Positions 2,710-20,719 of a DNA stretch of 20,719 bases are shown here, piece by piece; position 1 is the stretch's first letter; every line of letters starts with the position of its first letter. Position numbers and translations under genes: made by a program. The stretch is from a virus. The notes beneath the pieces were generated by a model that had not been told where the DNA came from, did not search any database, and worked only from the letters and a program-made list of their open reading frames with translations. The stretch covers positions 1-20,719 of the IMG/VR virus record IMGVR_UViG_3300012350_000066; one strand, written 5' to 3'.

Positions 2710-2928
2710 CTCTATCTCATCGGCCTGTGATGCGCTAACAAATCCGTCGCCATGACACGTCGCGCATCTGGTTAGCGCATAGAGGCCCCCGCCGTCCTCT
2801 CCGTACGAGATACCGTCAATGGGCTCCACACCACACATGCCAGACCCGAGACATTGCGGACAGCGCACGGGGTGCTGCTTGCCGGTCGGCAGTTCATCCT
2901 CGGGAAATAGGCCATGAATGCCAGTCAT
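2680..2928 (-). CDS. Small DnaJ-like zinc-ribbon protein (82 aa)
   Basis: The start ATG (2928-2926) overlaps the lysozyme stop as ATGA. Two half-sites, CPQCLGSG (with a further Cys three residues on) and CATCHGDG, are separated by about 30 residues; CxxCxGxG is the metal-binding unit of the DnaJ central domain, so a structural zinc is likely. No J-domain is present. It is the last gene of the late operon, after the lysozyme. Its role is unknown; small Cys-rich proteins of this type are common at the ends of phage operons. The 3' end overlaps the opposing terminator. Confidence 0.65.
   Translation of the reverse strand: MTGIHGLFPEDELPTGKQHPVRCPQCLGSGMCGVEPIDGISYGEDGGGLYALTRCATCHGDGFVSASQADEIEKSRGIAPAR
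2686..2710 (+). terminator. Intrinsic (Rho-independent) terminator
   Basis: Perfect 8-bp stem AGCCGGGG (2686-2693) / CCCCGGCT (2699-2706), 5-nt loop CGATA, followed by a U-rich tail (TTTCTCT). The tail is on the + strand only, so it ends rightward transcripts: the small RNA and any readthrough from the recombination operon. It lies inside the last codons of the oppositely oriented zinc-ribbon gene. No matching terminator for the leftward late operon was found. Confidence 0.85.
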
Positions 2929-3440
2929 GCGTCCGCATCGGGAGGATCTGCGCAGTGCTCCATGAGCTCTGCGAGCTGCTCACATCGGCCAGGGGTCTGC
3001 TTATGCCAGGCGGAATCCCGCATCTCCGCCGCCGCGCGCCCGAAATCGCCCATGCGAATCGCGGTCAGCATGTGGACAAAGCATCTGACCCCACCATCGC
3101 CCAACTGAAAGCACATGTCTGCCAAGACGAGCCTGGCATCGTCTGGTAACGATGCCCAGGTCTCTCGCCCCACAACATCGCCCGCATCGGTCAGCGCAGA
3201 GCCGGCGGTGTACTCGAGCAGCTTCTCGGCTTGCTCGAGAGTAATGGCCTGCGCGCCGGCCGCGATGGTCTCCGCCTGTGTCAGAGAGAGACCCAGGAGC
3301 GCCCGCATCGTCTCCACGGCATGGCCCTCGAGCAGGTACCCATAGCCAATGGTGGCGTGGCCCAGAGAATCGAGATAGCGAAAGGACCGCATGCCTTCCT
3401 CTCCGCGGAGACGGGCCATGAGCCGTTCAACCGCATTCAT
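2925..3440 (-). CDS. T4-type lysozyme (GH24 endolysin)
   Basis: The 171-residue protein aligns by eye along its length with T4 lysozyme. Glu15 (in RGEEGMR), Asp24 (RYLDSLG) and Thr30 (HATIGYG) match the catalytic E11, D20 and T26 with identical spacing, and the IGYGYLL, ITLEQAEKLL, MCFQLGDGGV and WHKQTPGR stretches match the conserved core. It cleaves the MurNAc-GlcNAc bond of peptidoglycan at the end of infection. There is no signal peptide or SAR segment, so release should need a holin. ATGA overlaps at both ends place it in a coupled lysis cassette. The length matches the family. Confidence 0.93.
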   Translation of the reverse strand: MNAVERLMARLRGEEGMRSFRYLDSLGHATIGYGYLLEGHAVETMRALLGLSLTQAETIAAGAQAITLEQAEKLLEYTAGSALTDAGDVVGRETWASLPDDARLVLADMCFQLGDGGVRCFVHMLTAIRMGDFGRAAAEMRDSAWHKQTPGRCEQLAELMEHCADPPDADA

Positions 3441-3691
3441 CGAGTAAACTCGTCCGCAATGCTCTGCGCGCGCGCTTGCGCGTCGGCGAGGATCGTAGCA
3501 ATGGCCGCCTTGCGGGCATCATCGTCTACGGCCAAGTCACGGGCCACCTTGACGAGCGCCGCAGTAGCCTCGGAATATGGCGTGGGCAATGTCGGCGCCA
3601 ACACATCGACGACCTTGTAGACATATTCGGCCGCCTCGCTGCCCGCGACCATTTCCAGAATGGCGATCAAATCATTCAGCGCTTGCGGCAT
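3437..3691 (-). CDS. Hypothetical small helical protein of the lysis cassette (84 aa)
   Basis: The start ATG at 3691 is chosen because AAGGAGG lies 5 nt upstream on the minus strand; the frame is open further upstream, but that part is antisense to nothing conserved and overlaps the next gene. The product is mostly alpha-helical by composition (MPQALNDLIAILEMVAGSE at the start, Ala-rich helix ARKAAIATILADAQARAQ near the end), acidic overall, and without a signal peptide or clear membrane segment. It overlaps the preceding gene by 20 bp and the lysozyme by ATGA. I do not recognise a family; position alone suggests a lysis or late accessory role. Confidence 0.75.
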   Translation of the reverse strand: MPQALNDLIAILEMVAGSEAAEYVYKVVDVLAPTLPTPYSEATAALVKVARDLAVDDDARKAAIATILADAQARAQSIADEFTR

Positions 3692-4151
3692 CGGAGCCTC
3701 CTTTGCAGTGGATGTTGATGGTGCACTTGGGAGCGGAGAGCTGGGCCTTGATTCGAGCTTCCTCGCATGACAGGCCAGCATCCAGACTATCATCGAGACT
3801 CTGTACGAGCCGATCGCAATCGGCCCTGACCTCCGCGGCCGCCAGAGGAACACTCGAGCAGGCGCCAAGAAAGAGCGCCACCCCGACGATGGGCGCCACT
3901 GGAGGCTTGCTCTTGCTCGTCGGCGTTTCCGCGGGTGTCGGGATATTGCGCAGTGTCGGCGGCGCCGGGTTATCGGGAGGAACGTTTGCCAAGTGCTTTA
4001 CCATACCGACGAGATCTGGCATCACCTTCAGGATTGCGCCGCCCACACGTGACTGGTCGTATCCGGCCGCGTGAATGAGCGATGCGACGACGCTGCCGGC
4101 GCTCACGATGACTCCCACCCATTGCTCAATTTGTTCCGCTGATAGACTCAT
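3672..4151 (-). CDS. Membrane protein with internal lipobox-like segment (holin or spanin candidate)
   Basis: The 159-residue protein has a hydrophobic segment at about 12-30 (VGVIVSAGSVVASLIHAAG), an amphipathic stretch, a Pro/Thr-rich linker at about 57-85, a second hydrophobic segment at 86-97 ending in a lipobox-like LFLGAC (Cys98) followed by SS, and a C-terminal part with four more Cys (112, 129, 143, 149). The segment after the linker looks like a small o-spanin-type lipoprotein, but no good start codon precedes it and it is fused to the N-terminal part. Gene position before the lysozyme fits a holin, antiholin or spanin. Start overlaps the upstream stop as ATGA. The function is inferred from topology and context only. 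Confidence 0.6.
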   Translation of the reverse strand: MSLSAEQIEQWVGVIVSAGSVVASLIHAAGYDQSRVGGAILKVMPDLVGMVKHLANVPPDNPAPPTLRNIPTPAETPTSKSKPPVAPIVGVALFLGACSSVPLAAAEVRADCDRLVQSLDDSLDAGLSCEEARIKAQLSAPKCTINIHCKGGSDAASAE

Positions 4152-4384
4152 GTTGCCTTTTCACCTTCCAATAGGGCCACTCGGTGTTCCAATAGAGTCA
4201 ACCGATGCGTGATTTCAATGCGTTCTTGATGCGTGGCCGTCACCTCGGCGGCCATCGCGCGGACGGCCAGCAGAATGTGGTCGAGCCGCTCAAAAATCAT
4301 GTCCTGCGAAGTCGCCAATTCGCCGAGTCGTTCCCCCATTTCGGCGAGCGATGAAGGAGCTTCTGATCGTTTCGGCGTGGTCAT
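4148..4384 (-). CDS. Small coiled-coil protein of the lysis cassette (78 aa)
   Basis: Both ends use ATGA overlaps. Heptad-like Leu/Ile spacing runs through most of the protein (LGELATSQDMIFERLDHILL, then ITHRLTLLEHRVALLEGEK), so a dimeric coiled coil is likely. No membrane segment is visible, unlike hemolysin XhlA-type proteins that have a C-terminal one. It may pair with the coiled-coil membrane protein encoded just upstream. I do not recognise a specific family. Confidence 0.7.
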   Translation of the reverse strand: MTTPKRSEAPSSLAEMGERLGELATSQDMIFERLDHILLAVRAMAAEVTATHQERIEITHRLTLLEHRVALLEGEKAT

Positions 4385-4689
4385 CGGCGTGGGCTACGCT
4401 CGGCCATTAATAGGTCGAGTTTGGTTTCTGTCTTGGCAAGTCGTTCGCTGACGACGGTCAGCCGCTCCGAGATTCCGCGAATGTCGGTTTGCAGCGTGCC
4501 GAGCTCCGCTCGTAGCTCGGCGGCGGAGAGCGTGATCTGATTTTTATCCGCATCGGCGCGCTCCACCTGCAGCAGCTGCGCAATGATACTGGTCGACGCA
4601 ATCAGGCACGTCCCCAGAATACCAAGGATGCCGTTTCTGCGTGCTCGCAGCTTGGAACGAATCAAATCGATTTCGCCGTCATCGCTCAT
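4381..4689 (-). CDS. Membrane-anchored coiled-coil protein (i-spanin-like candidate)
   Basis: The ATG at 4689 is chosen for its ATGA overlap with the upstream stop; the frame is open further upstream but becomes Arg/Cys-rich nonsense. The product has 102 residues: a charged N-terminus ending in RSKLRARR, one hydrophobic segment at about 20-41 (GILGILGTCLIASTSIIAQL), and a coiled coil from about 50 to 96 (LRAELGTLQTDIRGISERL and on). This N-in/C-out topology with a periplasmic coiled coil is that of i-spanins (Rz-like), which fuse inner and outer membranes in Gram-negative lysis. It could also be another membrane coiled-coil late protein. No clear ribosome site; coupling probably drives translation. 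Confidence 0.65.
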   Translation of the reverse strand: MSDDGEIDLIRSKLRARRNGILGILGTCLIASTSIIAQLLQVERADADKNQITLSAAELRAELGTLQTDIRGISERLTVVSERLAKTETKLDLLMAERSPRR

Positions 4690-4961
4690 GGGAACCAATC
4701 CGCGCCGAGCGGACCTCGGACGCCTGCCCCGATTGGGACCTGCCCCTCGGCTGCCAGGATTTCCGGCGATTCTTGCAGGGCCCATTGCAGTCCGGATGGG
4801 TGCGCAATCACGCCTGCGGCGTGCGTTGTGCTGCCCTGCGCGCCGGATACGTGGCGCCCCGCGCCTGCATCGACCCCCGCATGCGGATACCCAAGCTGCG
4901 AATCCATTGCCGTCTGCAGCGCTATCGCAGGCGCCTGCACAGCGAAGACAATCGCATTCAT
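4686..4961 (-). CDS. Hypothetical late protein (91 aa)
   Basis: Start and stop both overlap neighbours as ATGA, which is the main reason to accept it. The product begins MNAIVFAVQAPAIALQTAMD and is rich in Gly, Ala and His in the middle (AGAGRHVSGAQG, AAGVIAHPSG). There is no signal peptide, membrane segment or familiar motif. It lies between the LamG-like virion gene and the lysis cassette, so it could be a small structural or accessory protein. No family recognised. Confidence 0.7.
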   Translation of the reverse strand: MNAIVFAVQAPAIALQTAMDSQLGYPHAGVDAGAGRHVSGAQGSTTHAAGVIAHPSGLQWALQESPEILAAEGQVPIGAGVRGPLGADWFP

Positions 4962-5656
4962 GCGAGTAGCCCGAGACGCGCGCAGCCGGCTTTATGGATC
5001 CGAATCGCCACCGCATTGGGCAATAGGGTTGTGAAGAGCGCCCCGAAGAGCCAATCCATGTCGCTGCCTCCGGTGGCCGGCGACGCTCCTAGAAACACGG
5101 AACCCGTTGCGCCGGGCGCAGCCCACGACCCGAGTTGTGAGCTCATACTCTGTGCCACGCCGTTGACCATCCCAGTGACAATGCCGGATCCGCTTCCTCC
5201 AGAACCGATCGACCACATTTCGGGAACGGTCGTTGGCGTCGACCCCATAGCATGATCGGAGTTGCCGACAAATAACAAGTTACGCAGCCCGGTGGTCGTC
5301 TCCGCATTGAGCGAACTGCCGGCGCCCGCGCGAGCATTACCCATGATGCCATTATAGACGCCGGCCGCGATCGCTCGGACTCTGTGCGCCGACATATATG
5401 TGTGAGCGCCGGTGCCGATGAGGTCGATATTGGCGGCGAGTAAGGAATCAGCGTTAGCAAGCACAAACTGGACAGACGGCTGGCCGTTGTAGGTCGGTGC
5501 GCCAGTGTACAGTGGCTGATTGGCCGCGGTCGCCTGCAATAAGTCCACCGCCCCGGGCACTTGTGACGCCAGCGCAGAAACATCGGTCCCGTTGAGCGTA
5601 ACGCCAAGGGCCGCATCCCACATGGCCGCTAGGCCGTGCGCGGAGAAGCGTCGCAC
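4958..5656 (-). CDS. LamG/concanavalin-like phage virion protein, start uncertain
   Basis: The opening RRFSAHGLAAMWDAALGVTL followed by a Gln-Pro-Leu-Tyr strand and YNGQPSVQFVLANADSL resembles the start of LamG/ConA-like lectin domains in phage fibre proteins (pattern FSP-x-L-x-GL-x-LWLDA ... NG-x-P-x-x-x-F). The rest is Gly/Ser/Thr-rich beta sequence, and the likely role is a surface or receptor-binding accessory protein. The GTG at 5656 is the first in-frame start that keeps the conserved RRFS segment; ATG 5623 would begin inside the domain. Neither has a good ribosome site. A well-placed GAGGA and ATGATG at 5679 are in another frame (see findings), so the gene may carry a 1-base deletion or a sequence error. 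The stop overlaps the next gene as ATGA. Confidence 0.6.
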   Translation of the reverse strand: MRRFSAHGLAAMWDAALGVTLNGTDVSALASQVPGAVDLLQATAANQPLYTGAPTYNGQPSVQFVLANADSLLAANIDLIGTGAHTYMSAHRVRAIAAGVYNGIMGNARAGAGSSLNAETTTGLRNLLFVGNSDHAMGSTPTTVPEMWSIGSGGSGSGIVTGMVNGVAQSMSSQLGSWAAPGATGSVFLGASPATGGSDMDWLFGALFTTLLPNAVAIRIHKAGCARLGLLA

Positions 5657-10521: not shown

Positions 10522-11025
10522 TTATCTCGGCAGCGTGCGCATGCCCGGGCTGGCCATGATTGCCGGTGGCCCCTGCATCGGCGCCATCGGCGTGAATGGA
10601 CGCGGAGCAAACGCGCTTGCCCCCTGCGGCGTCGCGGCGAACGGATTGGCCATCACAGGCGCTGCGCCTGGAGCCATCGGCGTGAGCGGCCGCTGCGGGA
10701 AGGCGAGCGCGCCCGAAGGAGCCTGACCAATGCCGTTGGCCATCACGGGCGCGCCACCGGGAGCCATCGGCGTGAGTGGCCGCTGAGGAAACACACTCGA
10801 GCCCTGCGGCGCCATGCCAAACGGATTGGCCATGACGGGCGCTCCCGGCGCGTGCATCATCGCCTGAAAGTGCGGGGCTTGCGGCATGCCTCCCGCAAAG
10901 GGATTGATGGGCGCCCCGCCGTATTGATTGCCGCCTGCGAATTGCTGCAGGCGCTGCATGTTGGGAAATGCCATAGGCTGGCCCGCGCCAGGTTGAAACA
11001 TTCTCGGGTCGAATCCTTGTGCCAT
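10522..11025 (-). CDS. Pro/Met/Ala-rich repeat protein (167 aa)
   Basis: ATG 11025 is chosen because TAGGAG (11038-11033) lies 7 nt upstream; the longer open frame is shadow. The first 60 residues are Gln/Gly/Met-rich (MFQPGAGQPMAFPNMQRLQQ). Residues 61-150 are three copies of a 30-residue unit (APVMAN ... PQRPLTPMAPG) with a fourth partial copy to about 160. Charged residues are nearly absent, and the protein is probably disordered or polyproline-like. Position among the internal virion genes suggests a small structural or linker protein. Unknown family. Confidence 0.75.
   Translation of the reverse strand: MAQGFDPRMFQPGAGQPMAFPNMQRLQQFAGGNQYGGAPINPFAGGMPQAPHFQAMMHAPGAPVMANPFGMAPQGSSVFPQRPLTPMAPGGAPVMANGIGQAPSGALAFPQRPLTPMAPGAAPVMANPFAATPQGASAFAPRPFTPMAPMQGPPAIMASPGMRTLPR
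10576..10845 (-). repeat. Three tandem 90-bp coding repeats
   Basis: Codons 61-90, 91-120 and 121-150 each encode a unit of GAPVMAN(P/G)-x6-8-(F/A)-PQRPLTPMAPG type. The spacing is exactly 90 bp, and DNA identity is visible in the segments reading gccatcggcgtgag and ggattggccatcac on the + strand. A degenerate fourth copy (GPPAIMAS) follows. Confidence 0.9.
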
Positions 11026-11035
11026 GATGAATCTC

Positions 11036-13714
11036 CTATGCCGATGATGCCGGCGCGGTCCTGTTGTTGCTGATGAGTGACGCGCCAAAGGAGCCCGCCG
11101 CAGAGAGGAGCGCCGCGTCCCCCGTGGCCTGCGCCTGCATCTGGGCAATGGCTACCCCCCGGTCCGCGCCGTACATTGACACGTACGATTGTAGCTGACT
11201 TTGCGCCATCTGGAGCTGAGTGCCTACCGTGTACTGATCGATGTTCGTGAGCGCGCCGGCTGTCTGCATGCCCACACCGGTCGCGTTGCTCAAAAGTTGA
11301 TTTCCCTGACCCGACAGTGCGGTGAACGCGTTCTGCCCGTTGCCCATCGCGGTGTTGCTGGCGCCATACATGCCCTGCGCAAAGCCGAGTCCGCTGGCGA
11401 GCGCCGATTGCCCAATCTGACCAAACGCCGCCGCCGAGTTGAGCCCGCTTTGATCGTAGCTCTGACCTAGCTGACCGTAGCCTAGTCCTAGCTGGCCGGC
11501 TTGATTGGTCAGCGATACGTTTTGATTGCCGAGCGCGCCGAGCGCGCCGGTGGTCAGGTTGCCCGCAGCAATCCCGAGATTTCCCGCGCCGAGCGTGTCC
11601 TGCGAGCCGAGCGTCGAATAGCCAAGACCGAGATTGCCAGTCGTGCCCATCGCGCTCAGGTTTTGCCCGGTCAGGCTGGTCAGTCCTTGTCCAGCGGCGT
11701 TCTGCGCGTTGGCATCGATCGTGGCGCCGGAGGTGTATGCGTTCTCGCCGAGCTGGCCGTAACCTAGGCCGAGCTGGCCGGTAGCCTGCATGGCCTGGAC
11801 TTGCTGCGCGCCCAGGCCCTGAAATCCTTGTGCGGCTGCTTCCGTGGCGCCCTGGCCGAGCTGCGCGCCGGTGGTCCGGTAGCCTTGGCCGAGCTGCAGG
11901 CCGGCTTGTGTGAGCTGGCCCGCGCCGGCAATCGCCGATTGGCCGAGCTGTGCGCCCTCGCCATAGAGATTGCCGCCGAGCGCGGAGTATTGCTGTCCTA
12001 GCCCTCCGAGCGCCGTCGCGGCGCCGATGTCCTGCCCGCGCAGCGCGCCGAGCGTGCCCTGTTCCGTGCTCATCGCAGAGAGCTGCTGGCCGCGCCAGTT
12101 GGCCGCTTCTTGGGCGCGCAGCTGCGCCAATTGCATGCCGGTTTGCTGCTCCGTTGCGGCGTTCGAAAACATCGCCTGACGTAGGTTATTCGCCTCGTCA
12201 CCTGCGCTGCGCCCCGATCGCGCCAGGGCAATCGCCTGCGACATGTTCGTGTCTTCCGATTGCCTGAGCTGCGCCTCGGCTGCCGAGGGCCCCGGGCCCT
12301 GCTGATAGAAATTCTGCAGCCGACCGACCGCGCCAAGTGCACTTTGCCGGTCGGTGCCGGAGTACCCAAGATTTTGCGCCCCCTGATTGCCGTAGTAGCT
12401 CGCGTTCGCGTTGGCCACCGAACCGAGCTGAGAAAGCCCCGCCTGATTGCCCATCCCCTCGCGTGCCAAGGCGCTCGCGTTTTGCCCGGTGATGTTCTCC
12501 ACGCCGCTCGCGGCGCTATTCAGGTAGGCCTGATTCTGTTCGCCCTGCTGCGCTAGTGCGCCATAGCCTTGTGCAGCCGTATTTTGCGACCCGGTCGCCG
12601 CCGCCCCGAAGCCAGCAGCCTGGTTGCCGTAGTAGTTGCTGGTGTTGAGCGCGCCAGCACCGATATTCGAGAGATTCGCATTTGCTTGAGCTCCCACGTT
12701 GCGCAGCTGGCCGAATGCATCCACCGCGCCGGCTCCGGTGTTGGCCGCCTGCTGGCCGTAGTAATTCGAGAGATTCTGATAGCCGCTGGCCGTCTGATTC
12801 GCGTTGGCCGCGCTCGTATTGAGCGCGCCGATGGCGCCTTGGGCCTGTTGGTTGATCCCGCCGAGCGCGTTGAATGTCGCGTTCTGCAAGTCCATCTGGT
12901 TGCCGAGCAAGCTGGCCTGCTGGCCACCGTAGTATGCGCTGGCCTGATTGGCCTGATTGCCAAGCGCGGTCATCGAGCTGAGACCGTATTGACCTAGGGC
13001 GTTATTGTAATCGAGCAGCGCCTGGCCCTGGCCGAGCCCTTGTTGGCCAAGCAGCTGCTCATTGCCCGCGACGCCCATCGCATTATTGAGTATTTGATTG
13101 CCCGAGTTGAACGCGGAGGCGGACGCATTGCCCAATGTCGCCTGCGCATTATTCCCGGCATTGAGCAACATGTTTTGGTCGACGAGCCCGACCGAAGCGA
13201 CATTGTTGAAAAGCCCCGCCGGCGTCATGCCGAAATTCGCGCCGAGCTGATACCCATTGTAATTCGGCGCCGCGCTTAAGGAGCCCCCCTGTCCCACTTG
13301 CTGGAGCGCCCCGTCTTGGCCCTGCACGACGGTGCCTGGCTTGGGAACTTCGCCTGGAGCAAGCGTCTGGCCGGTGGCCAGGTTGATATACGTGGTATAC
13401 TTGGCCGTATTGGCCGCTATCCACGCGTTAGCATCCCCCCCGGGATTGTCGGTCATCCACTGCACGACACCCTTTTCAAGGCCTGCGTTGTCGACGCTCA
13501 CCGAATAGGACGGTGAGCCCATCTGCGGTGTCTGAGGCGTGTACATGGGCGGCGCCGTACTGTCGTCGCCGCCAAACAGACCGCCCAGTAAGCCGATCCC
13601 GCCTCCGACCAGCGCCCCTATTCCGGTACCAATGCCAGGCACGACCGAGCCGATCGCGGCGCCCGCTACGGCGCCGCCGGCCGTGTCGTTAATGACCGTC
13701 TTTGCTTTTGCCAT
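11036..13714 (-). CDS. Gly/Gln/Ala/Asn-rich virion protein with glycine zipper and 47-residue repeats (892 aa)
   Basis: ATG 13714 has GAGGAG 6 nt upstream and shares a base with the upstream stop (TAATG). An N-terminal glycine-zipper hydrophobic segment at about 12-50 (GAAIGSVVPGIGTGIGALVG and on) could insert in a membrane. A small mixed region follows to about 150, then about 700 residues almost without charge, dominated by Ala, Gly, Gln, Asn, Leu and Ser. One charged island near 480-560 (GPGPSAAEAQLRQSED, ALARSGRSAGDEANNLRQ) recalls phage structural proteins with similar GPSAA-Q motifs. Residues 648-788 contain exact 47-residue repeats. The glycine zipper and neighbourhood suggest an ejected pore-forming protein, but this is inference. 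Confidence 0.65.
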   Translation of the reverse strand: MAKAKTVINDTAGGAVAGAAIGSVVPGIGTGIGALVGGGIGLLGGLFGGDDSTAPPMYTPQTPQMGSPSYSVSVDNAGLEKGVVQWMTDNPGGDANAWIAANTAKYTTYINLATGQTLAPGEVPKPGTVVQGQDGALQQVGQGGSLSAAPNYNGYQLGANFGMTPAGLFNNVASVGLVDQNMLLNAGNNAQATLGNASASAFNSGNQILNNAMGVAGNEQLLGQQGLGQGQALLDYNNALGQYGLSSMTALGNQANQASAYYGGQQASLLGNQMDLQNATFNALGGINQQAQGAIGALNTSAANANQTASGYQNLSNYYGQQAANTGAGAVDAFGQLRNVGAQANANLSNIGAGALNTSNYYGNQAAGFGAAATGSQNTAAQGYGALAQQGEQNQAYLNSAASGVENITGQNASALAREGMGNQAGLSQLGSVANANASYYGNQGAQNLGYSGTDRQSALGAVGRLQNFYQQGPGPSAAEAQLRQSEDTNMSQAIALARSGRSAGDEANNLRQAMFSNAATEQQTGMQLAQLRAQEAANWRGQQLSAMSTEQGTLGALRGQDIGAATALGGLGQQYSALGGNLYGEGAQLGQSAIAGAGQLTQAGLQLGQGYRTTGAQLGQGATEAAAQGFQGLGAQQVQAMQATGQLGLGYGQLGENAYTSGATIDANAQNAAGQGLTSLTGQNLSAMGTTGNLGLGYSTLGSQDTLGAGNLGIAAGNLTTGALGALGNQNVSLTNQAGQLGLGYGQLGQSYDQSGLNSAAAFGQIGQSALASGLGFAQGMYGASNTAMGNGQNAFTALSGQGNQLLSNATGVGMQTAGALTNIDQYTVGTQLQMAQSQLQSYVSMYGADRGVAIAQMQAQATGDAALLSAAGSFGASLISNNRTAPASSA
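11351..11773 (-). repeat. Three 141-bp (47-residue) protein-coding repeats
   Basis: The motif LGLGY(G/S)(Q/T)LG begins at residues 648, 695 and 742 (leucine codons ending at 11773, 11632 and 11491), exactly 47 residues apart. Each is preceded by a related helix: QQVQAMQATGQ, QNLSAMGTTGN, QNVSLTNQAGQ. More degenerate copies lie N-terminal (GLGQQYSALGG, LQLGQGYRTTG). Confidence 0.85.
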
Positions 13715-16700
13715 TAGGGGCTCCTCATCGTGTTAGGTTGTCGCTTTAGCCCGGCGGCCTGATATATCTCCATCGATAGGCCGTTTAATACCATTGTCGC
13801 GGACCCGCCTGGAGCGCCAGAGGAAATCGTCAAGCGTACGCGCACACCATCGCAACGCGGTTGCGTGAGCATATGATCCGCCCCGTCGATCGTGTCGCCT
13901 AAGCTGGTCGCAATGTTGAAATTCGACCAAAAGGCGCCGTCGGTAAAGTTTCTGCCCGAATCGTACGAAACATCAAGCGATAGGATCCAGCCGTTCGTCT
14001 GGTCGCGTGTCTCGCCAAGTATTTGTATACGTCGAATGCGCCCCCATCCGAGGGCGCCAAATGGTCGGATGTCGCCCGTGGTCACCTGACCTTGGACATT
14101 CGACGTGGAGCTCCCATCGGTATCCTGATAACTCGTGGTCGACTCGATAATCGAGCCGTCCACGACGAGCAGCCCATCATAGATCGCGAGAGCTTTGATC
14201 GCGCGCGCAAAAAACGAATCGACATACCATTCGCGAATGCGAATATCGTAGATGAGCAGGCGTCCGGACGCGCCTGCAGTATCGGTGCATGCGAAATAGA
14301 CGAGGCTCGAGTCCTGATCGAATGCCGTCGCCGAGATATAGGGGAATAGCGCCAGGGTGTCGCGCACCGGCTGACCGATCCACACTGGCGCGCCGCCACC
14401 GCGAGGCAACAAGTAGAGCCGATCCAGTGCGCCTTGAAAAAACACGCCTTCACCGGTGAGAATGATGGACTTGCCGTCGATGCACCCAATATCGCTCGGC
14501 AGTCTTGTTGGCGGAGCGAAGGAGCCGGCGCCCGTGTCGTCCGGGCCGTCGCCGGTGATCGTCCAGATGGATGACGACGTGAAGGCGATCCATGTGCCGT
14601 CCAGATGAGTAACCCCAGTGATATCCGCATCCAGCACGGCGCGCCATGGTGCATTATTGGTCCAGCTAATGGGCTCGCCCGCAAACTGGAGCTTGCTCCA
14701 TTGCAGCTGAGCGCGATTGTCCATGCCGCCGAGCAAGATCCGATTGCTGCCCGCGCAGCACCATTGTGCTGGCGGAGGGGAGTCGTTCTCCTGGATGCCG
14801 GACAGCCCCCCGCGCGCACCTTGCGTGTAAAGAACCTGGTTGACTCGAATCGATGTGTCCGGCAGAGCATCAGTGACCACGGTCCCGCCAGGGCCGCCAG
14901 CGACAATCGTGGCCTGGTAGAAGATTGTTCCGCCGGCCAGTGTGCGATAGACAACTGCAAAGATGTCGCTGGTTGAGTTACCGTTGATTTTGCCGGTAAT
15001 CTGGGGAGTCGTGATCCATATGGTTGTGCTCTGATTACCAGCAGTAAGTGTAATGGTGATCGGCAGGCTAGGTTTGCTACGATGCCGATACCCGAGAACA
15101 TCGGTCCATTCCCACACCACAACGTATTGATATGTGCTGGCAGCGGTCAATGATCCGCCAACGCCTTGAGCGCTACTTGTGATGAGCGGCGTTTCAGCAA
15201 AATCGACGTCTAGAACCGCCTGCCCGTCATATCGCATGATACGCGGTCCGGACAGGACCGTCTCTCCGTTGAGTTGCGCCGCCTGGAACGACGGGGCGAA
15301 CGGGCCGCTCTCTATGCGCACAAGTGCATAGCCAACGGTGAGGGAGCTCGCGAACGGTAGGCTGCCGATGACAGCGGTGAGATTCGGATCGGCATCGAGC
15401 GCCGCGACTGTCGCGAATTGTCGCCGGGGATCGGGCGGAACAGCGGCGGTCGTTTTGACTTGCTGCGAGACTCCATCGAGGATGACAGTCTCCGCCATGA
15501 TCGCCTGAGAATTGAGGCGGGGCGGAAGGGCGATTGCATATGATGCCCCCGGGGTGGCAGTGGCCAAATCCACATCTCCGCAGAAGCAGTACGCCCATCC
15601 CTGCTGCGAAAATGGCTTACTGATAAGGTACATATTGTCCACGATATCGACCACCGCGGTACCGCCGGCGTATATCTGGACGGAGTAATCATTGCCATTC
15701 GCGCCAGCGGCTTGATTCGCGGCGATCATATAGTTGTACGTCGCGTTCGGATGGGGACCGGCAACCGGATAGCCGCTGATTCGGTTCGTGGATGTCACGG
15801 CAGCAAAGGCCGCAATGAATCCTGTACCTCGGCGGAACAGCGCGCGCTTAAGATCGCCCACATAGGTTGTCGCGCCGTCAATGACAGCCAGTACGACATC
15901 GATCGTCGGGTTGACGCCTGCTGGGCTAATGGCACAGCGATTCTCGCTCGCCGTTGTGGTCACAGTGGATAGGAGCGTGAATACTCCCCCACTGTCGACG
16001 GTGCCGAACGTGACGGTATTCGCCGCGCTCTGATAGGCGAGATAGGCCTCCGCCGCGGAACCGCCAGCGGACACGTCAAAATAGATCGCTCGGCCGGTGA
16101 ACGCGGTGACACACGTGCCAGTAGCGATGGGTGAGCCAATGGTTGCATTGAAGGATGCGAACTGGATGGCATTGCTGCTGTTTCGCACATAGAATAACAC
16201 AGGCACACCGCTAATAACGGCCCACTTGGCCATGAGCGGGTTATCGGGCAGCGTGAGGTTTAGCAGCTGCGCGCCGGTCGCGAGATCCAACATCACATGC
16301 ACGGGTGGAGAGGCTGCGCAGTAAGAGACAAACAGGCGCTGCCCCACAGCGCAAATATCGGTGGATTGGAAGGCATTCGACGAACCGTTTGCCTGCACCC
16401 TCGAGACGCGAGGCACGCCTAGGGTACCTGCGATACCCGCACTTACATTTGCCGCTACCGGCGAGGCCATTACCTGAGTATAGAAGCCATTGGCATACCG
16501 GACGGCCTGCGGTGGGTTGGACGTATTGATAGAGACGATGTGCTTTTTGCGGAATGGGATCATCGCGCGTACGGCGTTTGGATCGGGCGCCCCGCTCGTG
16601 TTGTCTTTCTGGAGTGCGTGACGCATCCCTAGGCGCGCATCGCGTTCGTAGCGCACGTTGCTAACGCTGACGAAAAGGCCCTGCGGCAATAGCTTGCCGT

Positions 16701-16749
16701 CCACCTCATTGTGCTGGCCTTTGACGAACGGGATGTGAATTTCCGCCAT
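13714..16749 (-). CDS. Podovirus-like tail tube/nozzle protein, probable beta-propeller (1011 aa)
   Basis: The protein is beta-rich throughout. The best signal is at about 660-870: NRILLGGMDNRAQLQWSKL, AGEPISWTN, a VTHLDGTWIAFTSSSIWTIT strand pair, GCIDGKSIILTGEGVFFQG, LDRLYLLPRGG, and a LLIYDIRIREWYVDSFF blade. This is the blade pattern of phage tail nozzle proteins (T7 gp12-like/tubular protein B type), where a cell-independent order of display, test and read segments recurs. A fibronectin-like insertion is likely near 540-600 (YQYVVVWEWTDVLGYRHRSK). The C-terminal GEPI...SLDVSYDSGRNF domain is also beta. Order adaptor, nozzle, internal proteins fits a podovirus. Ribosome site is weak; the gene starts 3 bp after the upstream stop. 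Confidence 0.65.
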   Translation of the reverse strand: MAEIHIPFVKGQHNEVDGKLLPQGLFVSVSNVRYERDARLGMRHALQKDNTSGAPDPNAVRAMIPFRKKHIVSINTSNPPQAVRYANGFYTQVMASPVAANVSAGIAGTLGVPRVSRVQANGSSNAFQSTDICAVGQRLFVSYCAASPPVHVMLDLATGAQLLNLTLPDNPLMAKWAVISGVPVLFYVRNSSNAIQFASFNATIGSPIATGTCVTAFTGRAIYFDVSAGGSAAEAYLAYQSAANTVTFGTVDSGGVFTLLSTVTTTASENRCAISPAGVNPTIDVVLAVIDGATTYVGDLKRALFRRGTGFIAAFAAVTSTNRISGYPVAGPHPNATYNYMIAANQAAGANGNDYSVQIYAGGTAVVDIVDNMYLISKPFSQQGWAYCFCGDVDLATATPGASYAIALPPRLNSQAIMAETVILDGVSQQVKTTAAVPPDPRRQFATVAALDADPNLTAVIGSLPFASSLTVGYALVRIESGPFAPSFQAAQLNGETVLSGPRIMRYDGQAVLDVDFAETPLITSSAQGVGGSLTAASTYQYVVVWEWTDVLGYRHRSKPSLPITITLTAGNQSTTIWITTPQITGKINGNSTSDIFAVVYRTLAGGTIFYQATIVAGGPGGTVVTDALPDTSIRVNQVLYTQGARGGLSGIQENDSPPPAQWCCAGSNRILLGGMDNRAQLQWSKLQFAGEPISWTNNAPWRAVLDADITGVTHLDGTWIAFTSSSIWTITGDGPDDTGAGSFAPPTRLPSDIGCIDGKSIILTGEGVFFQGALDRLYLLPRGGGAPVWIGQPVRDTLALFPYISATAFDQDSSLVYFACTDTAGASGRLLIYDIRIREWYVDSFFARAIKALAIYDGLLVVDGSIIESTTSYQDTDGSSTSNVQGQVTTGDIRPFGALGWGRIRRIQILGETRDQTNGWILSLDVSYDSGRNFTDGAFWSNFNIATSLGDTIDGADHMLTQPRCDGVRVRLTISSGAPGGSATMVLNGLSMEIYQAAGLKRQPNTMRSP

Positions 16750-16752
16750 GGT

Positions 16753-18309
16753 TCACGTGTTCTTCAGGAAGACGGCGGTTATCTTGACGGAGCCAGCATT
16801 GACGCTGACCGTGGCGGTCCAGTTGTTGGCCGCCACGGCCTGCGGCACGGCCACCGGAAACGGGATTACGATGGGATCGGCGGGCGTGGCCGCGGCGGGC
16901 GGGAAATCGAACACCATGCGTGTCGTTCCGGCCGTGGCATCCTTGACTGTGATCGTCGCCGCTGCGGCATTGGTCGTCGTGATGATGAGCGCCGAAAGAT
17001 CGTTGAATACGCCAGCGGCGCCGGCCGTGATGATGGTGGTTTCCGCGACCGATGCGGCAATGTTGGTTGTCTGCACGCCCACGAGATCGCGCACGTGGCC
17101 AGGGGATATCACGAGCCGACCGGCCTTGTCGGCCATGAGGGCCACGGCGTTGCCCGCTGTGGCATTGACCGGGTTAGCGGTCGCCGCCTTGGCCCCGATC
17201 TGCAAAGCGTTGGCCGGCGGGGCTGCAGCGATGGCCCCGTCGAACGAGGCGCCTGCATTGCCTACGATGCCAATTTTTTGACCTCCCACCGCTGCCGTGC
17301 CAACGTTATTGCCGGCAACCTGGCCTATATTGATTGCAGTGTTGCTGTTCGGCGACAAGGTCACGACGAGGGCCGAATCGGTCGTTTGCACGGCCACGCT
17401 TGGGGCCTTTACGGTCGCCTGTCGCCAGGGGAACGTTGGGTCGCCAATCGAGATGTTGTTGCCCGCCGTATCGCCGAGCACGACCGCGTTGACGACGAGC
17501 AGCGCCGACGAGGACGGGCCGACCGCCCCGGCGACGGTGAGAAACCGAATGGGGAGCGACGTAACGTCCGGGCCCTGTGCGCCGGTCGCCATGGTCGCGA
17601 CAACGTTATCCCGGTCATCGATGCACCAATAGCCGACGTCGCCGCGGATGTAGACGTAGTACTTGTGCGCCGAGCTATCGAGCGGCTGCTTATTGTTGCC
17701 GCTCGATGAGAGGTCCTGGACATTGACGCGTGTGCCGCTCTGATACGAGACGGCCCACATTTTCCCCGCCGTGTCGACGAAGAACCCCATGGCGTTGGTG
17801 AGCGGGAGCGCCGCGGTGGGTGAGCCTGGCGCGGTGGCCAATCCCCAGAAGCGGACGGCGTTCAGCAGCACCGGGAACTCGATGTTGATATTGGTCTGGA
17901 AATCCAGAAACCCTGGAGCGCTCGGCTGAAACGCCGCCTGGCTGGCGATCATGGAGAAGCCATTGGCCGTCGTGCCTGAGCCACCGGTCATGCTCGCCGT
18001 GGAAAAGGCGAATGCCGTCCCCGCGCCTCCCGTCGTAGGGGCGCTCCAGATGTTGGTCGTGTCGATGGGGCCCGAATCGAACGTATCGACGAGCAGTTGG
18101 GATGACGCGAGCTGAACGCGCTGCTCGCCCCATGGAGAGATGCGGTATGCTCCCCCGACGCCAGTGGCTGTTGTCAGCGCCTGCGCCGGGGCGACCGAGC
18201 TCGGATGCAGCGTGACCACCAGTGGCAGATCGGTGCTCGCGGCGGCTGTTGAGGCGGGCTTGACCGTAGCAACGTTTGTCGGAGTAACCGGGTCATTGAT
18301 GGTCGCCAT
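16753..18309 (-). CDS. Beta-rich virion protein with repeated module (518 aa)
   Basis: ATG 18309 has AGGAG 7 nt upstream and lies one base after the upstream stop. An N-terminal segment (ATVKPASTAAASTDLPLVVT, residues 14-33) recurs at 298-317 (ATVKAPSVAVQTTDSALVVT); this module is frequent in phage structural proteins. Between them, residues 76-280 look like a LamG/jelly-roll domain (VDTFDSG, FLDFQTNINIEF, AMGFFVDTAGKMWAVSYQSG). The C-terminus (407-518: RDLVGVQTTNIAASVAET ... TITVKDATAGTTRMVFDFP ... VKITAVFLKN) is a recognisable but unnamed phage beta-sandwich. A fibre or decoration role is likely. No enzymatic residues are apparent. Confidence 0.7.
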   Translation of the reverse strand: MATINDPVTPTNVATVKPASTAAASTDLPLVVTLHPSSVAPAQALTTATGVGGAYRISPWGEQRVQLASSQLLVDTFDSGPIDTTNIWSAPTTGGAGTAFAFSTASMTGGSGTTANGFSMIASQAAFQPSAPGFLDFQTNINIEFPVLLNAVRFWGLATAPGSPTAALPLTNAMGFFVDTAGKMWAVSYQSGTRVNVQDLSSSGNNKQPLDSSAHKYYVYIRGDVGYWCIDDRDNVVATMATGAQGPDVTSLPIRFLTVAGAVGPSSSALLVVNAVVLGDTAGNNISIGDPTFPWRQATVKAPSVAVQTTDSALVVTLSPNSNTAINIGQVAGNNVGTAAVGGQKIGIVGNAGASFDGAIAAAPPANALQIGAKAATANPVNATAGNAVALMADKAGRLVISPGHVRDLVGVQTTNIAASVAETTIITAGAAGVFNDLSALIITTTNAAAATITVKDATAGTTRMVFDFPPAAATPADPIVIPFPVAVPQAVAANNWTATVSVNAGSVKITAVFLKNT

Positions 18310-18310
18310 G

Positions 18311-19177
18311 TCAGGCTCCTACCTGGTAGGCAAAGTTGTAGGTGCCGACGACAATCCCGCTCGCTTGCCAATACGCGCGAATCGTGGTCGCGTCCACGAC
18401 GTACCCGGTGAGCTCGATGCTGTCCATTTCGAACTCGTCGCGCGCATTGCCCTTGCTCGCAATCGGCTGCGCCGTCTGGACGAGCAGCACATCCTTGCCG
18501 GCGGTGAGCCCGGAAAGTCCTGTCAGGTCGAAATGGCCGCTCGTTCCACGGCCAATGTCCTTGGAGAACTGCGTAAAGGAAAGCCCCCCGCTCGCGGGAG
18601 TCTGCCATGTGCCATCGGCGCGCAAGAACTTTGCGGTGCCGCCGCCGCTCGCCGGCACATCGCCAGCCGCAGCCGGACCAAATAGTGTCGGGGTCACCAC
18701 GACCGCGCCGGTCGTGGGCGATACCGTGATGCCCGCACCGCCGCTAGTAACCGACGAGACGGAGCCACCGCCCCCCGCGCCTACCGGTGGACGCCACCAG
18801 CCAACGCCGTCGCTCATGTATTCGTAGCGCCCGGCGGTCGTCAGAACATCGGTCGCCGCGCCCTGCACGAGGCCTGTGGTGGGCTTGACCGTGACGGTCC
18901 CGGCCTCGAGCTCGACAGAGATGCGTCGGCCCGCATTGACGCTCGTGGCCACCGGGAGGGTTACTGCAAACGTGCCGCTGGCCACAACAACCTGATCGAG
19001 TAGCGCCGTCACGTCGGCCGTCTGTAGCGACGTGGGCGAGGCGAGCGGCGTTGCCTGCTGCGCAATGCGCCCGAGCGCCGCCGCGACGTTGTCCTCGAGT
19101 TGCGAGACACCGCGCTTGAGACCATCGCCCGTCGTGTCGAATTGCGACAGGCGCTTCAGATTCGGAGCGATGGGCAT
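18311..19177 (-). CDS. Phage tail fibre-like protein (288 aa)
   Basis: ATG 19177 shares the base pair overlap TGATG with the lipoprotein gene downstream in map terms but upstream in transcription. A short helical N-terminus (about 1-45, attachment or coiled coil) is followed by a Gly/Ser/Val beta region (GGGGSVSSVTSGGAGITVSP), then the typical fibre phrase GGGTAKFLRADGTWQTP (about 183-199), then a C-terminal beta domain (HFDLTGLSGLTAGKDVLLVQ ... DEFEMDSIELTGYVVDATTI ... GTYNFAYQVG) seen in many phage fibres. It probably contributes to host recognition or to trimeric fibre folding. At 288 residues it is short, so it may be a distal segment attached to another fibre protein. Confidence 0.75.
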   Translation of the reverse strand: MPIAPNLKRLSQFDTTGDGLKRGVSQLEDNVAAALGRIAQQATPLASPTSLQTADVTALLDQVVVASGTFAVTLPVATSVNAGRRISVELEAGTVTVKPTTGLVQGAATDVLTTAGRYEYMSDGVGWWRPPVGAGGGGSVSSVTSGGAGITVSPTTGAVVVTPTLFGPAAAGDVPASGGGTAKFLRADGTWQTPASGGLSFTQFSKDIGRGTSGHFDLTGLSGLTAGKDVLLVQTAQPIASKGNARDEFEMDSIELTGYVVDATTIRAYWQASGIVVGTYNFAYQVGA

Positions 19178-19866
19178 CAGTTATCCGCGTCGAAACTGAC
19201 CTGCAGGTAGAATCCGGTCCACGACATGCCGGCGTTGCTACCAGCCTCGTCGAGGCCGTAATATCCGGCGGTCACGTTGCCGCAGCCAAGGTCCGCCATG
19301 GTCCATGGCGCGTTGCTCTGTGGATTCTGCAAAGGATCATATGCCACCCATCCTGCGAAGTTTGCGGCCAGCGGCCAGAACGCCGCATTCACCACCGCCG
19401 CCCCGTGACCGATCGAGTCAGTAATCGCTGCCAGGTAGGCTATGCTATTGCCGGTGATGAGCTCGTAATTGTATACGACGTCGATGTTGCGCGGATTGGT
19501 GTATCCACACGTGTTATTTCCCACGACCAACGGCGGGAATTTGAATGCCGCAAACCCACTCCCGAATCCGTTCGAGGTGGGCATCCAAACGAAGTCCTGC
19601 GTGGAGAAGTTACGCAACGCCGTACCCTGATAGCTGGCGCCATCGCTGCAACCGCTAGGCCCGCACGAGCGTTCGGTCCAACCAGGCCCCTCGGTCCAAT
19701 CGCTGTGGCCGAGGTTGACCGCGCCCGTCTGCGGCAAGGGCGATGGATACATTGCAATGCTATGATGCGTGAGCGCTTGCGTCGTCTCGCCACTCTTCTC
19801 TTCGCCGGTCGGCAGTGTGCATGCCGCCAGGCTAGTCGCCAATATCAACACGATGGCTAGTCTCAT
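19177..19866 (-). CDS. Secreted lipoprotein encoded within the virion operon (229 aa)
   Basis: The N-terminus MRLAIVLILATSLAAC is a complete lipoprotein signal peptide: Arg2, hydrophobic core, lipobox LAAC with Cys16. Residue 17 is Thr, so outer-membrane sorting is expected. An acidic linker ending TTQAL (about 20-32) precedes a globular, Trp/Tyr/Gly-rich domain with Cys68, Cys73, Cys120 and Cys195, which may form disulfides. AAAGGAG lies about 11 nt upstream of ATG 19866. A lipoprotein between the adaptor and fibre genes is unusual; superinfection exclusion or receptor masking at the host surface is the commonest known job of phage lipoproteins, but here it is expressed with late genes. No family recognised for the mature domain. 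Confidence 0.75.
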   Translation of the reverse strand: MRLAIVLILATSLAACTLPTGEEKSGETTQALTHHSIAMYPSPLPQTGAVNLGHSDWTEGPGWTERSCGPSGCSDGASYQGTALRNFSTQDFVWMPTSNGFGSGFAAFKFPPLVVGNNTCGYTNPRNIDVVYNYELITGNSIAYLAAITDSIGHGAAVVNAAFWPLAANFAGWVAYDPLQNPQSNAPWTMADLGCGNVTAGYYGLDEAGSNAGMSWTGFYLQVSFDADN

Positions 19867-19884
19867 TTTTGTTCTTGCTCCTTT

Positions 19885-20676
19885 TCACCACACGTTTCCC
19901 GTTCGCCAGATCTCATCGTAAAGCTCCGTTGCTTCCTGTCCGACCACATCGATGCGCGTGATCGGGCCTTCTCGCTGCACGGCATTGGCCGCGTAGAGAA
20001 TGTCGTCTTGGACCTTTTCCCGCTCGGTCGCGGCGAGCTGTGCAATGCTCCCCATGCCGCCCTCGGCGCCGCCATCGGCCGTGGCGATCTTGTAGACCGC
20101 GTCCCAGATGACCCAATCATCCCAGCCCTCGACGCCGTCGAAGACGTCCGTATCATTTGCCTTGTCGACCCATGCGGGCACGTACCAGAGATTGTAAACG
20201 TAGGCTCGGTCCGTGGCTGGCAGCAGGCCGAGCAGGCCAGCTGCCACAGTGGTCGTCGATTCGACGCCCATGTTGTACAAAAAGAAGTTGCGAGGCGCCC
20301 CCGTCTGCGCGCCGAAAACATTGTAGAATTGCGTACGTTGGTCAAACGCGATGGCCTTGAGCGCGCGCCATCGATTGGTCGTCAGAAAGAGCTCTAGCCC
20401 GACCAGATGTGCCAAGTCCGCGGGCAAGGCGAGGTCTGTCCACGCCTTGCCCGCCGTCACTCCGCTCGCTGTCGAGCCGGTGGCAAGTTTGCAATACAAG
20501 CTCTTGGCGCCGTTGGTCTGCACCAAGCGGCGCCGAAGAGCCTGCCATGATTGATTGATCTCCGTATTCAGCCTGGCATTAGGCCAGCGCGCCGTTGTGC
20601 TCGTCGTGTCCGCGCCGATGTCCGCCAGGACTCGAATGCGACCACGCAGCACGGATAACGCAACTGGCCTTGCCAT
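19885..20676 (-). CDS. Head-tail adaptor (connector / gatekeeper-like) protein (263 aa)
   Basis: ATG 20676 has GGAGG 9 nt upstream and lies one base after the preceding stop. The protein has an N-terminal helix (LRGRIRVLADIGAD), the stretch RWPNARLNTEINQSWQALRR typical of connector proteins (start of the adaptor helix bundle, cf. P22 gp4 and T7 gp11 types), a central beta part, and a C-terminal GWDDWVIWDAVYKIATADGG plus a charged helix (LAATEREKVQDDILYAANAV), again as in phage adaptors. It would sit between portal and tail. Its place ahead of the nozzle gene agrees. Call rests on motif memory and gene order. Confidence 0.65.
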   Translation of the reverse strand: MARPVALSVLRGRIRVLADIGADTTSTTARWPNARLNTEINQSWQALRRRLVQTNGAKSLYCKLATGSTASGVTAGKAWTDLALPADLAHLVGLELFLTTNRWRALKAIAFDQRTQFYNVFGAQTGAPRNFFLYNMGVESTTTVAAGLLGLLPATDRAYVYNLWYVPAWVDKANDTDVFDGVEGWDDWVIWDAVYKIATADGGAEGGMGSIAQLAATEREKVQDDILYAANAVQREGPITRIDVVGQEATELYDEIWRTGNVW

Positions 20677-20677
20677 C

Positions 20678-20719
20678 TCAGTAATCCTCCGACTTGACGC
20701 ATGCCTTCACCGCATCCCA
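20678..20719 (-). CDS. 3' end of an upstream late gene (partial)
   Basis: Reading leftward from the window edge, the frame WDAVKACVKSEDY ends in TGA at 20680-20678, one base before the adaptor start, and its last codons contain the adaptor's GGAGG ribosome site. The tight spacing matches the rest of the operon. Thirteen residues are too few to assign a function. Confidence 0.45.
   Translation of the reverse strand, partial: WDAVKACVKSEDY

Follow-up and report, generated by a model that had tools for sequence, protein, structure and literature searches.

What does a predicted outer-membrane lipoprotein do in the middle of a phage tail gene cluster? The question is raised by an open reading frame in the virus record IMGVR_UViG_3300012350_000066, which is analysed here over its whole length of 20,719 bases (the window). 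The frame was confirmed on the minus strand, with the following genes around it:

19885..20676, minus strand: SU10-type adaptor (head-tail), P0003, 263 aa, upstream of the lipoprotein gene
19177..19866, minus strand: lipoprotein gene, 229 codons, ATG start, TGA stop
18311..19177, minus strand: fibre- or appendage-like gene, 288 aa, with an FLRADGTW motif, recognised by sequence style and by a match to phrog_37034 (E 0.0015, function unknown)
16753..18309, minus strand: 518-aa tail-region protein, no family match
13714..16749, minus strand: nozzle-like tail protein, 1011 aa, the most useful marker of kinship with other phages

The location between adaptor and fibre genes given by the first-pass annotation is supported, for the adaptor by homology and for the fibre by sequence style together with the weak PHROG match. 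The window adaptor has 26% identity to its counterpart in the viral contig L003 and no direct match to Pfam SU10_adaptor, a family that the counterpart on the Myxococcota contig G099:C39 matches at 1.4e-9; a two-row profile of the window and L003 proteins aligned to this G099:C39 adaptor at 96% in hhalign. The FLRADGTW motif presumably reflects a fibre or appendage role, and we infer a fibre function for the 288-aa protein. Searches of viral_contigs returned no relatives of the adaptor, 894-aa or 518-aa window proteins, and those of the phages collection none of the adaptor or the 1011-aa protein.

The lipoprotein gene itself is organised as follows:

19878..19883, minus strand: ribosome-binding site AAGGAG, 11 nt before the lipoprotein ATG and directly after the adaptor TGA
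19822..19866, minus strand: predicted type II signal peptide MRLAIVLILATSLAA, residues 1-15, with predicted cleavage before Cys16
19819..19821, minus strand: lipobox Cys16, the predicted lipidation site, with Thr (not Asp) at +2
19771..19818, minus strand: linker, residues 17-32, TLPTGEEKSGETTQAL, mildly acidic, with a TTQAL end
19180..19770, minus strand: mature domain, residues 33-229 (197 residues), orphan
19175..19179, minus strand: TGATG, overlap of the lipoprotein stop and the fibre start

Since there is no in-frame start further upstream, the signal peptide is not the product of a wrongly chosen start. We scored lipoboxes by a PROSITE-like rule of our own coding against random N-termini with the composition of the window proteins. 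The rule was passed by 0.2% of these, and by 0.0025% when a hydrophobic core with a Kyte-Doolittle mean of at least 2.0 was also demanded; the core of the lipoprotein reaches 2.5. It is the only coding-strand frame in the window that satisfies the rule, which four antisense frames on the plus strand also do with weaker cores (0.8-1.8). The lipobox signal peptide claimed earlier, MRLAIVLILATSLAA followed by Cys16, is thus borne out at a chance level of 0.2% to 0.0025%, and so is the linker ending in TTQAL, which had been called acidic and is only mildly so.

The same annotation described the remainder as a globular domain with cysteines. The cysteines are there, four of them besides that of the lipobox (68, 73, 120 and 195), compared with 0-1 in the neighbouring adaptor and fibre, whereas the globular part of the description gained nothing from two AlphaFold runs made without an alignment, which gave pLDDT values of 34.3 and 34.6, beta strands only and no usable model. 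The mature domain is 13.7% aromatic, the highest share among ten proteins measured, and nearly Lys-free (2% Lys+Arg), but no single composition figure is unique to it, as the lysozyme of the window has 2.3% Cys and an 892-aa protein 2.1% Lys+Arg. Its cadence may be that of common phage beta-sandwich proteins, an impression not used as evidence.

The gene appears to be read together with the tail genes. No promoter-like site was found on the minus strand within 18000-20719, and terminator-like sites amount to two overlapping ones inside the fibre gene and one inside the adaptor gene (three against 1.6 expected). The start region of the lipoprotein gene has no notable structure. Because the gene is read with the tail genes, the operon layout suggests late expression. 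Of the translational coupling to the fibre gene that had been proposed, the TGATG overlap is seen directly and the coupling proper is a likely consequence of it. Elsewhere in the window, a lysozyme gene (2925-3440) matches Pfam phage lysozyme at E 1.4e-8 and the PHROG tail-lysozyme at 1.4e-20. The frame 3672-4151 and that at L142:1293-1691 encode small proteins of the lysis region that contain an internal stretch resembling a lipobox and may be outer spanins. The former lies beside 4381-5016, whose Rz-like match is weak (E 0.028). RecT-like and PD-(D/E)XK nuclease-like genes were recognised by eye at 619-2372 on the plus strand, against the direction of the late genes; a 12-base tandem repeat (x17) at the record end (1-204) codes in some of its frames for a charged peptide of repetitive sequence, and a 90-base repeat of about three copies (10583-10842) lies inside a 208-aa minus-strand frame.

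The lipoprotein had nothing significant in Pfam, PHROGs, NCBIfam, PADLOC, PDB, phages, plasmids, viral_contigs or genome_contigs; viral_contigs was scanned three times with different stretches of the protein, and the pattern-based scans reach close relatives only. Nor was there a match at E<=1 among 50,697 phage records, while the ten genomes behind the named records gave matches only at E>=0.07, and the best non-self match in a phmmer search of 25,801 frames of fetched loci (E 0.064) was to an Arg-rich, apparently non-coding frame. Eight of 377 Myxococcota genomes gave matches at E<=0.01, the best at 0.0019, where chance alone predicts 3.8, roughly half as many. The frames of seven of the eight were viewed and none is a co-linear lipoprotein, and we rejected these matches as homologues. 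Sequence comparison thus leaves the mature domain an orphan, within the sensitivity of the tools used. The homology check that the first-pass annotation had proposed has thereby been run, and it did not reveal the domain as an ordinary virion protein lacking a signal peptide in related phages.

Related phages could be found through the 1011-aa protein, which has 30% identity to proteins of the viral contigs L002 and L003; these contigs are 99.5% identical over L002 and were therefore counted as a single lineage. Two of 282 genomes from the phylum of Minicystis also matched the protein (G099:C39, E 9e-53 over about 490 positions; G290:C136, 1e-23), compared with two of 277 from the phylum of Geomonas, which served as the control and gave matches at 1e-6 and 8e-6 that span less than 100 positions, a contrast that is indicative only, since the control search used a different, three-row profile including the G099 protein. 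G099:C39 is a contig of 36,725 bases from a Myxococcota genome and looks by eye like a whole temperate podophage, with terminase, portal, capsid, adaptor, small appendage, nozzle and lysis genes and an integrase-like gene at one end. Between adaptor and nozzle it carries a 126-residue gene, and L003 two genes, one small (about 100 residues) and one of 459 residues, all of them lacking a lipobox; the G290 contig stops just upstream of the nozzle gene, so that this interval is not readable there. The lipoprotein is thus missing from the slot in both readable lineages (L002/L003 and G099), which makes the gene look like an accessory addition to the cluster. An unrelated lipoprotein with several cysteines is encoded on G099:C39 (L143:4004-4450, minus strand, corresponding to 24004-24450 of the contig). 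Like that of the window it is free-standing, has a strong signal and belongs to a related podophage linked to Myxococcota, but it is only about 148 aa long, differs in sequence and lies upstream of the terminase region, outside the tail cluster.

The best genomic relative of the 1011-aa protein being that on G099:C39, a Myxococcota host is likely for the phage, though not proven, since this contig could be a co-binned phage and not a prophage. The first-pass annotation had arrived at a myxobacterial host from the style of the leader, and this argument did not hold. Among 132 predicted myxobacterial lipoproteins (Minicystis 31, Sorangium 21, Nannocystis 17, G187 13, Myxococcus 39, and 11 from twelve sampled mglA loci, mostly of Myxococcaceae) not one carries xQAL in the 45 residues that follow the lipobox Cys, and three have Q[AGS][LIV], compared with eight for scrambled forms; similar endings such as VSQEL in L286 and SEAEL in L289 are not diagnostic. 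Leader residues 1-36 matched 36 of 282 Myxococcota genomes and 11 of 297 from the phylum of Geomonas (E<=0.3), and a two-leader profile 105 of 222 and 35 of 228, respectively (E<=0.1). The 38 leader-profile matches that were inspected (30 + 8) contain no TTQAL class, and the Myxococcota excess consists of generic lipoprotein leaders and one separate family; the leader as a mark of the host was rejected. The separate family, CATPVGVxRVD lipoproteins (with variants such as CAAPIGV and CASPIGV), has mostly long frames and recurs across many Myxococcota genomes (members in L227, L229, L231, L234, L237, L243, L246, L247, L250, L252, L254 and L099). Another locus, L005 (BNCN01000011.1), is titled Comamonas sp. 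KCTC 72670 and encodes a protein 99% identical to MglA of Myxococcus xanthus, so the title may be wrong.

Phage lipoproteins encoded beside receptor-binding genes are known from other systems. The llp gene of T5 lies adjacent to and downstream of the gene for the receptor-binding protein, and Llp binds FhuA from the periplasm (PMC9586334); Rtp45, of about 6 kDa, targets LptDE (PMC12685063), likewise with a periplasmic side of action. The cor cassette is found immediately downstream of a tail fibre gene, Cor acts early in infection, and exclusion of this kind also stops progeny from adsorbing to the remnants of lysed cells (PMC13164509), while in Drexlerviridae the loci of receptor-binding proteins may adjoin cognate superinfection-exclusion genes (PMC8594841). 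Like Llp, Cor and Rtp45, the window protein is a phage-encoded predicted outer-membrane lipoprotein with its gene beside a receptor-binding or fibre gene, and it shares with Llp and Cor a type II signal peptide with a lipobox. Yet no significant sequence similarity to Llp or Cor was found (Pfam, PHROG, NCBIfam, phage records); with 213 residues after Cys16 the protein is several times larger than Rtp45; its gene lies upstream and not downstream of the fibre gene, in a podovirus-type tail cluster; and it is, from the gene position, probably expressed late, unlike Cor. By size and sequence it is not a member of the Llp/Cor group, but it may work like them.

We tentatively favour the possibility that this is an accessory gene of the moron type in a phage with a short tail, encoding an envelope lipoprotein that is made together with the tail proteins and masks the receptor of the phage, in superinfection exclusion or protection of progeny. 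Given the export signal, the lipobox, the linkage to the fibre gene and the accessory status, a receptor block by an envelope lipoprotein is the most economical mechanism, and by analogy the exclusion or progeny-protecting role, already proposed in the first-pass annotation, is consistent with the precedents; the gene position has clear parallels in T5 llp, cor and lambda lom. The protein would be exported by Sec, lipidated and, with Thr and not Asp at +2, delivered by Lol to the outer membrane, where its domain, stabilised by disulphides and placed on the cell surface or close to it, would bind, or interfere with, the receptor recognised by the adjoining fibre. An infected (or lysogenic) cell would then stop adsorbing the same phage, progeny would be spared from loss on envelope debris at lysis, and a blocker gene linked to the fibre gene would stay paired with the receptor specificity. 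Llp and Rtp45 act periplasmically, and the predicted lipoprotein may face either side of the membrane; its surface role is a supposition. In a myxobacterial host, TraAB outer membrane exchange might even pass the lipoprotein to kin, so that neighbours not yet infected would have their receptor masked before the infected cells lyse, an extension that we consider far-fetched.

The main rival, which we regard as rather doubtful, is that the protein changes the host surface for reasons unrelated to adsorption, such as lysogenic conversion, adhesion, protection or predation. Lambda offers a parallel in Lom and Bor, envelope proteins dispensable for plaque formation, of which the former is encoded in the tail-fibre gene cluster, with J and stf as the neighbours of lom, while bor is a lipoprotein gene (PMC10695390). 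These are phage-encoded envelope proteins as in the window, but Lom is a beta-barrel and not a lipoprotein, and Bor, which is one, is encoded beside the lysis genes. The phage in G099, with its integrase-like gene and a different lipoprotein elsewhere, likewise suggests that such phages collect lipoprotein genes. Against this reading, a separate promoter-like site on the coding strand is lacking, so that expression in a lysogen is not obvious, and no integrase was recognised by eye in the window, itself a fragment.

It is unlikely that the protein is linked to the virion, either as an exported, lipid-anchored factor for fibre assembly or trimming or as a tail component lipidated during envelope passage. 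The tight packing between adaptor and fibre genes with the TGATG overlap would suit such a role, but tail assembly is cytoplasmic, which puts an exported protein on the wrong side; its Cys content differs from that of adaptor and fibre, it is missing from the same interval in relatives, and inspection by eye showed no ribosome-binding site ahead of Met39, the first Met downstream of the Cys.

Capture from a host gene was also proposed in the first-pass annotation; a recent capture of a host lipoprotein gene with its cell function retained strikes us as improbable. The leader is an ordinary bacterial one and the GC1 of the gene (0.53) is the lowest of 19 window genes measured, yet its GC3 (0.72; other window genes 0.59-0.79) is phage-like, and the absence of a homologue from the 377 Myxococcota genomes, the ten further genomes and genome_contigs leaves capture without support. 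Finally, a counterpart of the SitA lipoproteins for outer membrane exchange between myxobacteria, which in Myxococcus are encoded on Mx-alpha prophages (PMC5562445) and thus resemble the window protein as lipoproteins on a phage-like element of a (here likely) myxobacterium, is scarcely credible, since the architecture fails: SitA has an N-terminal escort domain of about 375 aa, a C-terminal nuclease and a downstream immunity gene (PMC5562445, PMC8546572), whereas the window protein is far smaller (229 aa), has no escort domain and no Pfam nuclease, and is followed by a fibre-like gene.

In the literature examined, the superinfection-exclusion lipoproteins with a solved mechanism come from long-tailed coliphages, and in the parts of it covered by our search we saw no myxobacterial podophage described as having a lipoprotein gene between its adaptor and fibre genes, which is not proof of absence. 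Should the protein merely be a surface moron, its interest would be modest. If it acts like Llp or Cor, exclusion would be performed by a large and unrelated domain, and this in a phage with a short tail whose host group is little studied; the lipoprotein would then point to the receptor of the phage, and the link with the fibre gene could serve as a rule by which to search for more such proteins.
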